Assembly: GCF_964340395.1 (NCBI RefSeq)
Contig: NC_135553.1
Coordinates: 10,828,501 to 10,892,500 of the forward strand
Source of the DNA: Glandiceps talaboti
Lineage: Eukaryota > Hemichordata > Enteropneusta > Spengelidae
Direction: 5' to 3'
DNA: 64,000 nucleotides
Shown here: piece after piece, positions 13,013 to 35,102 of the stretch
How positions within the stretch are numbered: the stretch's first letter is position 1
Layout of the letters: each line of letters starts with the position of its first letter
Notes under the pieces: model-generated
Told to the model about the DNA's origin: nothing
The model's database searches: none
Seen by the model: only the letters and a program-made list of their open reading frames with translations
Position numbers and translations under genes: made by a program

Positions 13013-13637
13013 ATGAAATTGTTTGGAATATGCATCGTATTTGTAGTCATGAGAAGTGTTGAGAGTGTTCAAATTAAAGGTAATTATCTGTTTCATATTT
13101 TATTAGGACATTCCTTAAATCATATTTCCAGCTCATCTTACTATATTTTTGTAAAGAAATTGAAAAAAATCGACAGCTGTAAAGCCATACCCGAGTCTCT
13201 CTCTCTCTCTCTCTCTCTCTCTCTCTCTCTCTCTCTCTCTCTCTCTCTCTCTCTCTCTCTCTCTCTCTCTCTCTCTCTCTCTCTCTCTCCCTCTCCCTCT
13301 CTCTCTCTCTCTCTCTCTCTCTCTCTCTCTCTCTCTCTCTCTCTCTCTCTCTCTCTCTCTCTCTCTCTCTCTCTCTCTCTCTCTCTCTCTCTCTCTCTCT
13401 GGCTGTCTGTCTGTTACACCATGACGGTCATGGCCATGTTTTAATTATAGTAAACTCAATTGCAGAAGACATTACTAGTATTCTTCTTTCCCTCAACTGA
13501 TATAGGTTCACGTTGCTGGGTAGCACCGAAGAAAAGAACACCATGTCCTGTGTCTGCATTCACACAACAGAGATGTGAATTATCGAACTGCTGCTGGGAT
13601 ATTAGACAACAAGTGTGCTACGTAAAGTCGAAAATAG
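13013..13637 (+). CDS. signal peptide and trefoil (P-type) domain exons
   Basis: Exon 1 (13013-13079) gives a leader of about 20 residues. Exon 2 (13506-13637) encodes [14 protein letters not shown], then [12 protein letters not shown] and VCYVK. It has six cysteines with the diagnostic CC-aromatic pair of trefoil domains, residues about 23-66. Trefoil modules usually occur in secreted mucosal proteins or beside glycosidase domains. Exon 2 is a phase 1-1 module. Intron 1 contains a CT microsatellite of about 200 bp. Confidence 0.85.
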
Positions 13638-34600: not shown

Positions 34601-35102
34601 TGGAATAGAGGCGAAGCAAGTGCCACCAAAAGGTCAAAATACAGGAAGTAATGGTACACCACAGTGCAGTACTTCTAACTTTTCACGGAAAGAAAGTGTT
34701 GCACGAGCACATGATGAAGTACCCACGGCAAAAGCATCATCAAGGGTTTCATCACAAATTGGCGAAAGTCACGAAATTCCGTCAGAGAAGAAAGATACAC
34801 ACAATATCACACTTGACGTCACCCAAGAAGACATCACTAATGTTCGCAAGTTATCCGGAGTACCTCAAAATGAAGAAAGTCCTGAAGTAACTTCGGAGCA
34901 AAACATCATTATGAGCAACAATAAACTTGGTATGGCCAAAGACGACATCGGATATGATGGCCAATCAACCGAGAACATAAAACCTGGTGAGACAGCTTAT
35001 GAGGACAAAAACGTCGCAGACAGGATACCTATTAAAGTGTCTCCAGAAAACAAGCAACTTACAGATGGCACGAGCGAAGTTATATCTGAGGACAGCAATT
35101 GA
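13013..35102 (+). CDS. mosaic LRR/LDLa G-protein-coupled receptor (GRL101-like), 31 exons, 2140 aa
   Basis: Exons: 13013-13079, 13506-13637, 14515-14835, 15431-15685, 16194-16448, 17343-17462, 18089-18373, 19494-19864, 21095-21233, 21830-22099, 22303-22491, 23226-23654, 23798-23998, 24201-24273, 25035-25195, 25561-25596, 26039-26155, 26398-26508, 26750-26881, 27302-27421, 27589-27738, 28034-28156, 28438-28557, 28853-28952, 29278-29358, 29905-29976, 30187-30258, 30618-30689, 31250-32289, 33484-33749, 34560-35102. All junctions are GT-AG. Lengths sum to 6,423 nt in one open frame. The start is the ATG before a hydrophobic leader ([12 protein letters not shown]). LDLa modules plus LRRs plus a relaxin-receptor-like 7TM are the hallmark of snail GRL101 and relatives. 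The trefoil, kringle, Link, F5/8C, PAN, CUB and C-type lectin additions and the kinase-like tail go beyond that. It should sit in the plasma membrane with about 1,530 extracellular residues. The ligand is unknown. Confidence 0.85.
13195..13400. repeat. (CT)n microsatellite in receptor intron 1
   Basis: About 206 bp of CT with two CCCT interruptions, a long polypyrimidine/polypurine tract. It gives a spurious Ser-Leu open frame. Confidence 0.98.
14515..15685 (+). CDS. receptor exons 3-4: galactose-binding-like beta-sandwich (tentative)
   Basis: Exons 14515-14835 and 15431-15685 encode residues about 67-258. [11 protein letters not shown] at the start and [16 protein letters not shown] near the end of exon 3, and [15 protein letters not shown] closing exon 4, fit the strand pattern of F5/8C or fucolectin-type domains. 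Key residues are weakly conserved. The assignment rests on fold-like pattern, so moderate confidence only. The frame and phases (1-1) are firm. Confidence 0.6.
14865..15045. repeat. dispersed repeat (CCTAGCAACA family), two diverged units
   Basis: Two head-to-tail partial units, each with GCAAaATATGCCTAGCAACA, AAGAC and a second AGCAACAGCCAAAT or GTAACAGCCAAAT. They are related to the copy at 1985-2130. They lie in receptor intron 3. Confidence 0.6.
15746..15938. repeat. (TATG)n/(TACG)n/(GATG)n/(CATG)n microsatellite
   Basis: Successive blocks of related tetranucleotides, each expanded separately, in receptor intron 4. Confidence 0.97.
16194..16448 (+). CDS. receptor exon 5: kringle-like domain
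   Basis: Residues about 259-343. [19 protein letters not shown] and then GDECVNWES match the kringle opening (C-Y-x3-G-x2-YRG, then C-x2-W). NFCR, VCFT and ENCDI provide the later cysteines. It is a single phase 1-1 exon of 85 codons, the usual kringle size. Kringles bind proteins or lysine-rich partners; they occur in proteases, growth factors and ROR receptors (family knowledge) and are unexpected on a GPCR. Confidence 0.8.
17343..17462 (+). CDS. receptor exon 6: EGF-like domain
   Basis: Residues about 344-383. [18 protein letters not shown] and [14 protein letters not shown] give six cysteines in the EGF spacing, with the typical YNGGTC and GYSGSRC. It is a 120-bp phase 1-1 exon. No calcium-binding EGF signature is seen. 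Confidence 0.93.
18089..18373 (+). CDS. receptor exon 7: Link-like domain
   Basis: Residues about 384-478. [20 protein letters not shown] resembles the start of Link (hyaluronan-binding) modules: aromatic, EA, C, GA, IAT. The later [11 protein letters not shown] fits the module end. The middle is diverged and cysteines are fewer than canonical, so hyaluronan binding cannot be assumed. Alternative: a diverged C-type-lectin-like fold. Confidence 0.6.
19494..21233 (+). CDS. receptor exons 8-9: F5/8 type C (discoidin) domain
   Basis: Exons 19494-19864 and 21095-21233 give residues about 479-648. [28 protein letters not shown] and the closing [12 protein letters not shown] are the core of a discoidin domain (the 'QG', the 'S-x-DG-x-W' and the last strand). 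The two exons join in phase 0 inside the domain, while the outer boundaries are phase 1. The exon 9 donor (AAA/GTAACA) is weaker than most here. Function is probably carbohydrate, lipid or collagen binding. Confidence 0.8.
21534..21600. repeat. (GTCT)n microsatellite
   Basis: About 65 bp in a receptor intron. Confidence 0.96.
21830..22099 (+). CDS. receptor exon 10: PAN/apple-like domain
   Basis: Residues about 649-738. [20 protein letters not shown] and then [13 protein letters not shown] follow the PAN/apple pattern of C-x3-C, C-x-F, a Y/N turn, then C. Single phase 1-1 exon. PAN modules mediate protein or carbohydrate contacts. Confidence 0.8.
22303..22491 (+). CDS. receptor exon 11: unrecognised 63-residue module (tentative)
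   Basis: An open block bounded by GCAAG (acceptor) and AAAT/GTAGTT (donor). Its phases (1-1) fit the flanking PAN and CUB exons. It contains [26 protein letters not shown] and DASCTV, with four cysteines. I recognise no family. The acceptor is weak and skipping the exon would also keep the frame, so it may be alternative or not an exon. Confidence 0.45.
23226..23654 (+). CDS. receptor exon 12: CUB domain
   Basis: Residues about 802-944. [49 protein letters not shown] and [10 protein letters not shown] are the ordered CUB motifs (opening G, CxW, the D-x-v-x-v-x-G strand, the last cysteine, the closing F-x-a-x-Y). Single phase 1-1 exon with a strong acceptor. CUB domains bind proteins, often in a calcium-dependent way. 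Confidence 0.93.
23798..25596 (+). CDS. receptor exons 13-16: C-type lectin domain and linker
   Basis: Exons 23798-23998, 24201-24273, 25035-25195 and 25561-25596 give residues about 945-1101. Seen: [50 protein letters not shown], then [14 protein letters not shown] and NHWNDVLC with a final FVC. QPD plus WND is the calcium-site signature linked in this family to galactose-type ligands, so carbohydrate binding is likely but unproven. The inner exons are phases 1-2 and 2-1. The 36-bp fourth exon adds a 12-residue linker. Confidence 0.9.
24949..25021. repeat. (AAAT)n microsatellite
   Basis: About 70 bp ending only 13 bp before the acceptor of receptor exon 15, so it occupies the usual polypyrimidine/branch-point region of that intron. 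Confidence 0.97.
25727..25772. repeat. (CTGT)n microsatellite
   Basis: About 45 bp in a receptor intron. Confidence 0.95.
26039..28557 (+). CDS. receptor exons 17-23: seven LDL-receptor class A modules
   Basis: One module per phase 1-1 exon: 26039-26155, 26398-26508, 26750-26881, 27302-27421, 27589-27738, 28034-28156, 28438-28557 (residues about 1102-1392). Calcium-site acidic clusters are present in modules 2 ([11 protein letters not shown]), 3 ([11 protein letters not shown]), 4 (ending [11 protein letters not shown]), 6 ([13 protein letters not shown]) and 7 ([11 protein letters not shown]). Module 1 ([11 protein letters not shown]) and module 5 ([13 protein letters not shown]) are diverged and may not bind calcium. 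In relaxin receptors one LDLa module is needed for activation; GRL101 has an array of them (family knowledge). Confidence 0.92.
28853..30689 (+). CDS. receptor exons 24-28: LRR N-cap and four leucine-rich repeats
   Basis: Exons 28853-28952, 29278-29358, 29905-29976, 30187-30258 and 30618-30689, all joined in phase 2 (residues about 1393-1525). The cap has CQF and [14 protein letters not shown]. Repeats such as [32 protein letters not shown] and [16 protein letters not shown] show the LxxLxLxxN/T pattern. Three exons are exactly 72 bp, the one-repeat-per-exon organisation typical of LGR-type receptors. The array is short compared with about 10 repeats in relaxin receptors. Confidence 0.9.
29026..29114. 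repeat. (ACAT)n microsatellite
   Basis: About 85 bp in the receptor LRR introns. Confidence 0.97.
30768..30843. repeat. (GTCT)n microsatellite, interrupted
   Basis: About 75 bp with a GTCCCTCCGTCC interruption, in the intron before the 7TM exon. Confidence 0.95.
31250..32289 (+). CDS. receptor exon 29: hinge and seven-transmembrane rhodopsin-type core
   Basis: One 1,040-bp exon (residues about 1525-1871). It opens with the cysteine hinge [13 protein letters not shown] and SCDDILSH, as in the relaxin-receptor/GRL101 group. Seven hydrophobic segments follow. Seen: [10 protein letters not shown] (TM2), the conserved TM3 cysteine in GPVCTTIG with its partner in KVCLPL, a modified DRY region ([11 protein letters not shown]), LWIP in TM6, and [11 protein letters not shown] (NPxxY) in TM7. 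The Arg of DRY is kept, so G-protein coupling is plausible. The exon ends in phase 1 at a consensus donor. Confidence 0.93.
32583..32696. repeat. minisatellite, about 32-bp unit, four copies
   Basis: Units built on CTCACCCCAAGGGCAGAAG and TCGAGTTGACTCC, shortened in the last two copies. It lies in the intron after the 7TM exon. Confidence 0.85.
33484..33749 (+). CDS. receptor exon 30: protein-kinase-like fragment
   Basis: Residues about 1872-1960. VQIAMLKES could be a VAIK-like strand. [19 protein letters not shown] reads as kinase helix E, followed by [14 protein letters not shown], which aligns with the catalytic loop HRDLKxxNxL/I. HRD is HGD and the metal-binding Asn is His. The exon joins exon 30 to exon 31 so that VRVI is followed by VSCFGAF, where DFG has become CFG. 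No glycine loop or C-lobe was found, so this is a truncated pseudokinase-like segment. Catalysis is unlikely; a scaffold role is possible. Confidence 0.7.
34560..35102 (+). CDS. receptor exon 31: C-terminal tail
   Basis: Residues about 1961-2140 plus stop. After the CFGAF motif the sequence is hydrophilic, rich in Ser, Thr, Glu, Lys and Asn, and predicted disordered. Many Ser/Thr sites could be phosphorylated. The acceptor (CTCTTTCAG) is strong and phase 0 matches exon 30. The stop is TGA at 35100-35102. Confidence 0.78.
   Translation: MSCFGAFLMIDKMRGIEAKQVPPKGQNTGSNGTPQCSTSNFSRKESVARAHDEVPTAKASSRVSSQIGESHEIPSEKKDTHNITLDVTQEDITNVRKLSGVPQNEESPEVTSEQNIIMSNNKLGMAKDDIGYDGQSTENIKPGETAYEDKNVADRIPIKVSPENKQLTDGTSEVISEDSN

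Follow-up and report, generated by a model that had tools for sequence, protein, structure and literature searches.

The window analysed here, a stretch of 64,000 nucleotides from the hemichordate Glandiceps talaboti (NC_135553.1, positions 10,828,501 to 10,892,500; coordinates below count from its first letter), carries on its plus strand a candidate gene for a very long G-protein-coupled receptor (GPCR). The gene model was built by hand: open frames with domain-like cysteine or repeat patterns were anchored and then joined at GT-AG sites. It comprises 31 exons that run from an ATG at 13013 to a stop at 35102 in a single frame of 2139 residues without internal stop. The rebuilt model thus reproduces the exon count, the frame and both ends given by a first-pass annotation of this DNA, and its length differs by one residue from the 2140 stated there. 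We consider it rather probable, from sequence, that this is one gene for an LGR of the GRL101 kind (type C2), whose N-terminus has been lengthened by modular exon shuffling.

Splice signals agree with the model. Picking sites purely on score reproduces the model phase at 25 of 30 acceptors and 28 of 30 donors, against a chance expectation of about 10 of 30 for each, in a check that was not blind: candidates were confined to the anchored open frames and the sites were already known to the analyst. Seven of the 60 sites miss: at exon 6 the donor, at exon 11 the acceptor as well as the donor, and at exons 14, 17, 21 and 25 the acceptor. The end of exon 9 was set at 21233, where the donor outscores that at 21224 in the same phase. 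Codon usage was discarded as proof of coding because it discriminates poorly; 12 of the 31 exons surpass 95% of the 377 open runs taken from introns, and even the exon for the seven-transmembrane (7TM) core is not among these. A search for missed module exons gave candidates in three of the 30 introns (21, 28 and 29) at the thresholds used, with no module recognised when these were judged by eye rather than with Pfam. No paralogue of the gene was found within the window, where the sole match outside the gene has an E-value of 8.1.

The ectodomain, of about 1564 residues with 92 cysteines and 12 N-glycosylation sequons, was scanned against Pfam as part of the full model in three long pieces, and its modules were also scanned individually. 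Exon 1 (13013..13079; donor rank 1 of 13) is a signal-peptide-like first exon lying outside microsatellites and other coding exons. It is followed by a trefoil domain with six cysteines in exon 2 (13506..13637; PF00088, 22 bits against a cut-off of 21). Exons 3 (14515..14835) and 4 (15431..15685), previously read as the two parts of a beta-sandwich, have top-ranking splice sites on both sides, and together they gave no Pfam match and no PDB match at E<=10; the single-sequence fold of exon 3 is of low confidence (predicted local distance difference test, pLDDT, 37), and we leave both exons without assignment. A kinship of this pair with the F5/8C-like domain of exons 8 and 9 was rejected at a similarity z of 0.26. 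Exon 5 (16194..16448) has six cysteines and is kringle-like, with PF00051 just below its cut-off of 34.3 bits when scanned alone (33.5 bits, E 5e-8) and at 28.6 bits in the long piece. Exon 6 (17343..17462) is EGF-like (PF00008, 24.8 bits against 21.5), and exon 7 (18089..18373), whose donor is in the top 0.1% of GT sites, is Link-like, with the Xlink profile PF00193 below cut-off at E 7e-4 alone and 0.009 in the long piece.

Further along, exons 8 (19494..19864) and 9 (21095..21233) form the first and last parts of an F5/8C-like domain; PF00754 matches the two together below cut-off (E 8e-4 alone, absent from the list at E<=1 in the long piece), and in the PDB they have 13 matches at E<=10, of which 12 are to factor VIII (best E 0.14). 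PAN-like exon 10 (21830..22099) exceeds its cut-off of 21.4 bits only if scanned alone (PF00024, 22.8 bits; 17.3 bits in a longer piece). Exon 11 (22303..22491), called an orphan module in the first-pass annotation, has four cysteines, an acceptor ranking third of three and a donor ranking second of eight, and no match in Pfam, the only database searched for it. It may not be a real exon, which tells against the chain as drawn. A CUB domain in exon 12 (23226..23654; PF00431, E 8e-20) precedes a C-type lectin divided among exons 13 (23798..23998), 14 (24192..24273; acceptor ranking second of five by score, selected since it restores the frame) and 15 (25035..25195), across which PF00059 scores 54.4 bits. 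Exon 15 holds the end of this domain with QPD at residue 1041 and WND at residue 1064, which we take to be the signature of calcium-dependent, galactose-type binding. Exon 16 (25561..25596) is a short linker with the best of nine donors and the only candidate acceptor.

Seven LDLa modules follow, one per exon: exon 17 (26039..26155; six cysteines, acceptor ranking second of six, PF00057 at 20.7 bits, below cut-off), exon 18 (26398..26508; four cysteines), exon 19 (26750..26881; six), exon 20 (27302..27421; seven), exon 21 (27589..27738; six, acceptor ranking second of three), exon 22 (28034..28156; six) and exon 23 (28438..28557; six, donor in the top 0.1% of GT sites). PF00057 thus appears as one match and five stretches in the two pieces that hold the seven modules, the five stretches spreading over the six modules of exons 18-23. 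The cysteine count is even in 17 of the 18 ectodomain module units, the fourth LDLa with its seven being the exception. Taken over the whole model, trefoil, EGF, CUB, Lectin_C, LDLa, LRR_8 and 7tm_1 reach their Pfam cut-offs. The domain search that the first-pass annotation had proposed as a check accordingly matched all of trefoil, kringle, EGF, Link-like, F5/8C, PAN, CUB, C-type lectin, LDLa, leucine-rich repeat (LRR) and 7tm_1, three of them below cut-off. Its count of at least eleven kinds of extracellular module shrinks to ten with profile support, as the beta-sandwich and the orphan match nothing.

Intron phases bear on how this chain may have arisen. In the model, every intron that separates two ectodomain modules, as far as the N-terminal LRR cap, is phase 1, and so is the intron between the 7TM and the tail. 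Introns within modules are phase 0 in the F5/8C-like domain and the tail, phases 1 and 2 in the C-type lectin and phase 2 in the LRRs; the intron between exons 3 and 4 is phase 1 and would add a within-module phase 1 if both form one domain. Phase-1 module borders are the pattern of exon shuffling. We propose exon shuffling because the borders up to the cap are all phase 1 and the within-module introns are mostly of other phases.

The LRR region begins with the N-terminal cap in exon 24 (28853..28952; phase 1 in, phase 2 out, two cysteines) and continues through four phase 2-2 exons supported by LRR profiles, namely exon 25 (29278..29358; 81 bases, acceptor ranking second of seven) and, each of 72 bases and backed by splice scores, exons 26 (29905..29976), 27 (30187..30258) and 28 (30618..30689). 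LRR_8 scores 59.5 bits over exons 24-29. Four LRR exons and a cap compare with the 6 to 10 LRRs expected of type C2. Within intron 28, two candidate exons of phase 2 overlap; their score is fair (5.6), and by eye they are not LRR-like. A candidate extra exon in this intron, at 31033-31128 on the plus strand, is phase 2-2 with fair splice scores and contains no recognised module.

Exon 29 (31250..32289) encodes a short hinge of about 35 residues, counted from the last LRR exon to a first transmembrane helix whose start was set by eye, and the 7TM core. The core matches 7tm_1 at 69.5 bits. In the PDB its two leading matches are the thyrotropin receptor (E 1.2e-31) and relaxin receptor 1 (E 5.8e-31); they are followed, among the best 60 of 123 matches, by the receptors for FSH and LH, a family-1 GPCR without a name and LGR4. 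The core carries ADLL (D2.50), WxP and NPCIY (NPxxY), which we presume to be the usual 7TM motifs. In the third transmembrane helix (31650-31720), isoleucine (IRA) stands where DRY/ERW has its acid, the rest of the LGR core being regular; this counts against the preferred reading, and coupling may therefore be altered. Membership of the Adhesion GPCR class was rejected on the 7tm_1 match, neither 7tm_2 nor GPS having matched at E<=1 in the three pieces scanned with Pfam. The LGR-type 7TM, the LRRs, the multiple LDLa modules and the short hinge bear out the GRL101-type core with a rhodopsin-type 7TM that had been recognised at first pass, and they support, at the level of sequence, assignment of the core to the LGR-type rhodopsin family, type C2.

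How such a receptor would work can be sketched. The outer chain (trefoil, the unassigned domain, kringle, EGF, Link, F5/8C, PAN, CUB and C-type lectin) would bind glycans or proteins of the matrix, of cells or of microbes and could concentrate or gate the receptor. By analogy with the family, a ligand that may be an insulin/relaxin-like peptide would be bound by the LRR region, and the LDLa modules together with the hinge would act on the 7TM as in RXFP1. The 7TM would then signal via a G protein. The earlier description of the ectodomain as a pattern-recognition array we regard as a guess, its sole site-level support being the C-type lectin with QPD and WND. A serious competitor, to which we give somewhat less than even weight, is that this is a peptide-hormone receptor: an insulin/relaxin-like ligand would act through the LRRs, the outer modules would merely anchor the protein, and there would be no microbial recognition. 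The core is indeed LGR-like, and insulin-like peptides have been put forward as ligands of type C2 LGRs (PMC8286064, PMC6267866, PMC4079206; here and below, cited papers are represented by the portions consulted), although in these same sources ligands are proposed and none is settled. Against a pure hormone receptor, nothing in the sequence assigns ligands to parts, and the lectin retains both of its motifs.

Behind the 7TM, exon 30 (33484..33737), with a kinase-like fragment that includes a stretch of 12 residues, joins exon 31 (34560..35102; acceptor in the top 0.2% of AG sites) to give a continuous stretch of 36 residues across the junction. The first-pass annotation names neither this kinase-like tail nor the possible end at 25676 described below. 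Exon 30 and the first part of exon 31 gave 24 PDB matches at E<=10, all of them protein kinases aligned over the catalytic loop (best E 0.0084), and exon 30 alone gave 24 protein kinases among 26 matches (best E 0.018), the other two being thymidylate synthases; the 24 kinase matches stem from few kinase families. The match extends into exon 31, the addition of which raises CTD kinase from 18.7 to 19.4 bits and MRCK alpha from 15.4 to 16.6 bits, along with MRCK beta and MAP3K5. In motifs that we assume to correspond to HRD...N and DFG, the tail has HGD with H for N, and CFG for DFG, and so falls short of the complete catalytic set (N-lobe, HRD...N, DFG). After CFG the sequence is acidic and Ser/Thr-rich up to the stop. 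No kinase N-lobe exon was recognised in intron 29, where the first thresholds gave one phase-1 candidate (33022-33099, 25 translated residues) and relaxed thresholds gave further candidates with poor scores, none related to a kinase.

Several results pull away from a kinase origin. On adding exon 31, BUB1 is unchanged, 8rpc falls from 14.4 to 13.7 bits and 7q4a from 13.8 to 13.6. The Pfam matches of the tail are all borderline and below cut-off, namely Kdo (E 0.015), Pkinase (PF00069, 13.8 bits, E 0.04) and PK_Tyr_Ser-Thr (PF07714, 12.6 bits, E 0.081). The single-sequence fold of exon 30 (pLDDT 65) found no protein kinase among the 50 Foldseek and 50 VIA-align matches listed, which comprised RNase-H and actin-like folds (sugar kinases, reverse transcriptase) and other proteins, and no Foldseek match at E<=0.001; the fold model is of low confidence, and we count it neither for nor against the kinase assignment. 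Because the profiles stay below cut-off, no N-lobe exon was recognised and the sequence turns acidic and Ser/Thr-rich after CFG, the tail is at most a degenerate kinase-like fragment across a splice junction. The retained stretch (hinge strand, catalytic loop, start of the activation segment) lacks the DFG aspartate, the remainder of the C-lobe and any detectable N-lobe, and would therefore serve as a docking or scaffold element, not as an enzyme.

The tail could also be no remnant of a kinase, or else a piece that is separate or optional; this is on balance unlikely but deserves a hearing. Reading through exon 29 meets a stop at 32297 with AATAAA at 32296, so that the receptor could end just after the 7TM, and exon 30 could have a start of its own at an in-frame ATG (33444); the subthreshold kinase profiles and the uninformative fold search point the same way. 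On the other side stand the four splice sites around exons 29-31, all four the best by score and in phase, and the protein kinases that make up all 24 PDB matches of the joined exons at E<=10, over the catalytic loop.

Whether the outer chain and the core form one transcript turns on the region around exon 16. A scan of the plus strand from 5001 to 31000 for signal-peptide first exons with a phase-1 donor scoring at least -1 yielded 13013-13079 together with reads of microsatellites at about 15.7-15.9 kb, a read of exon 14 in another frame and two reads ending at a GT inside exon 24. The exon at 13013 is the only signal-peptide-like one of the scan outside microsatellites and outside out-of-frame reads of, or into, supported coding exons. 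The flanking gene exons lie on the minus strand on both sides (DUF4743 at 8.6 kb, GMC oxidoreductase from 39.3 kb), which we count in favour of one gene. Two features weigh in the other direction. The out-of-frame read of exon 14 (24222 or 24234 to 24273) is hydrophobic, has a good donor, scores like 13013 and could by phase join exon 16 or 17; and read-through of exon 16 reaches a stop at 25676 followed within 15 bases by ATTAAA (25683) and AATAAA (25691).

The second of these could also mark an alternative end of the same gene. In such an arrangement one locus would give both the full-length receptor and a soluble mosaic that stops at 25676, a possible decoy or opsonin, the two sharing the signal-peptide exon at 13013. 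We think this less likely than not by a clear measure, while noting that it is compatible with the single gene preferred here. The terminal exon and its poly(A)-like words are sequence signals only, and such words recur about once per 500 bases outside a microsatellite (AATAAA 45 times and ATTAAA 17 times in 23.1 kb, with 16 of the 45 AATAAA inside that one microsatellite).

Improbable, in our judgement, is a pair of tandem genes, one for a secreted mosaic (13013 to 25676) and the other for a GRL101-like receptor starting somewhere in about 24.2-25.8 kb. It would draw on the same read-through stop with its ATTAAA and AATAAA, on the phase-compatible 24222-24273 read and on an ATG at 25702, which opens a hydrophobic stretch of 28 residues that crosses a (TCTG)n microsatellite and leads to a donor scoring -3.9, a weak start. 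Yet the gap from 25196 to 26038 contains no start with a phase-1 donor scoring above 0, and only two of its 14 ATGs have one when scores down to -4 are admitted, one of these giving three residues. The read at 24222 is an unlikely start, and we think it a chance resemblance because exon 14 matches the lectin profile in another frame; AATAAA-like words, as said, are common locally. The joining of the 5' exons to a GRL101-type core, as first annotated, is therefore favoured by the sole clean first exon at 13013 and is unproven in view of the 24222 read, the 25702 start and the 25676 end, and a single gene is likely the better reading. A decaying or decoy receptor, to which the isoleucine at the DRY/ERW acid, the four instead of six cysteines of the second LDLa and the seven of the fourth might point, is very improbable given 2139 codons without stop or frame break and the retention of the other 7TM motifs.

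The single gene may encode an LGR-family receptor that combines a ten-kind recognition ectodomain, a G-protein core and a pseudokinase-derived cytoplasmic scaffold, an animal rhodopsin-class GPCR-kinase-like fusion, with a soluble ectodomain isoform from the same gene; this fullest version we put forward tentatively and would not expect to hold in every part. If true, the addition of lectin, CUB, kringle and F5/8C modules to a C2 LGR would demonstrate that a hormone receptor can become a multi-ligand sensor through phase-1 exon shuffling, and the tail, if confirmed, would be a rhodopsin-class addition to the GPCR-kinase fusions.

Around the gene, ten flanking open frames, a selection of those present, were scanned with Pfam. 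Upstream on the minus strand lies the DUF4743 domain (8605-8865, E 2e-25), and downstream on the same strand are two C-terminal exons of GMC oxidoreductase (39343-39567, just below cut-off, and 62641-62892) and an exon with FAD/NAD-binding matches (56869-57204); the oxidoreductase and FAD/NAD-binding exons perhaps belong to duplicated genes. A LINE-type element (long interspersed nuclear element) occupies 44078-48178 on the plus strand; its open frame has 1367 codons and matches endonuclease, reverse transcriptase and zf-RVT profiles, and 5' of the element an open frame at 42552-43577 has no Pfam match. Fragments that by eye resemble reverse transcriptase lie at 58205-59337 (plus strand), within which 58948-59334 weakly matches ALKBH8_N. 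Two adjoining arrays of a 155-base repeat (52576-56299) have consensus units that by eye look reverse-complementary, as in an inverted satellite, and about 32 copies of a 42-base repeat with 96% matches fill 3589-4916.

Set beside known systems, the sequence argues for a member of an established receptor family whose mosaic ectodomain is unusual and long; a literature search over titles and abstract openings, in which subscription journals are thinly covered, recognised no LGR with such an ectodomain. Type C LGRs are split into C1 and C2 by LDLa number, have a short hinge and, in the case of RXFP1/2, an LDLa of importance for activation (PMC4561518). Like GRL101 and other type C2 LGRs (PMC8286064, PMC4561518), the protein has several LDLa modules, then LRRs, a short hinge (about 35 residues, where the type C2 criterion is about 30) and an LGR-type 7TM. 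GRL101 of Lymnaea stagnalis, however, has 12 LDLa and six LRRs (PMC8286064) where we count seven LDLa and four LRR exons, and a starfish GRL101-like receptor has six LDLa (PMC6267866); the present gene further differs from GRL101 in the eight additional profile-supported module kinds in front and in the kinase-like tail. With the type C1 receptors RXFP1 and RXFP2 it shares LDLa plus LRR, a short hinge and a 7TM that has relaxin receptor 1 among its best solved matches (in the best 60 of 123), whereas RXFP1 has one LDLa and 10 LRRs (PMC4561518) in place of a mosaic ectodomain. Kringle, somatomedin B, C-type lectin, CUB, LDLa and discoidin modules, a comparable repertoire, precede the 7TM in Adhesion GPCRs of amphioxus (PMC2246102), but here the 7TM is of the rhodopsin/LGR class and no GPS/GAIN profile appears among the Pfam matches at E<=1. 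Fusions of GPCRs with kinases are described from oomycetes, amoebozoans, choanoflagellates and sponges, and the portion consulted of a 2025 survey places the holozoan ones only in choanoflagellates and sponges (PMC12716839). As in the GPCR-TK and GPCR-TKL/K proteins of the latter two groups, kinase-like sequence would here lie C-terminal to the 7TM; those proteins carry recognisable kinase domains on other kinds of 7TM (PMC12716839), whereas the Glandiceps gene would carry a degenerate fragment on an LGR.

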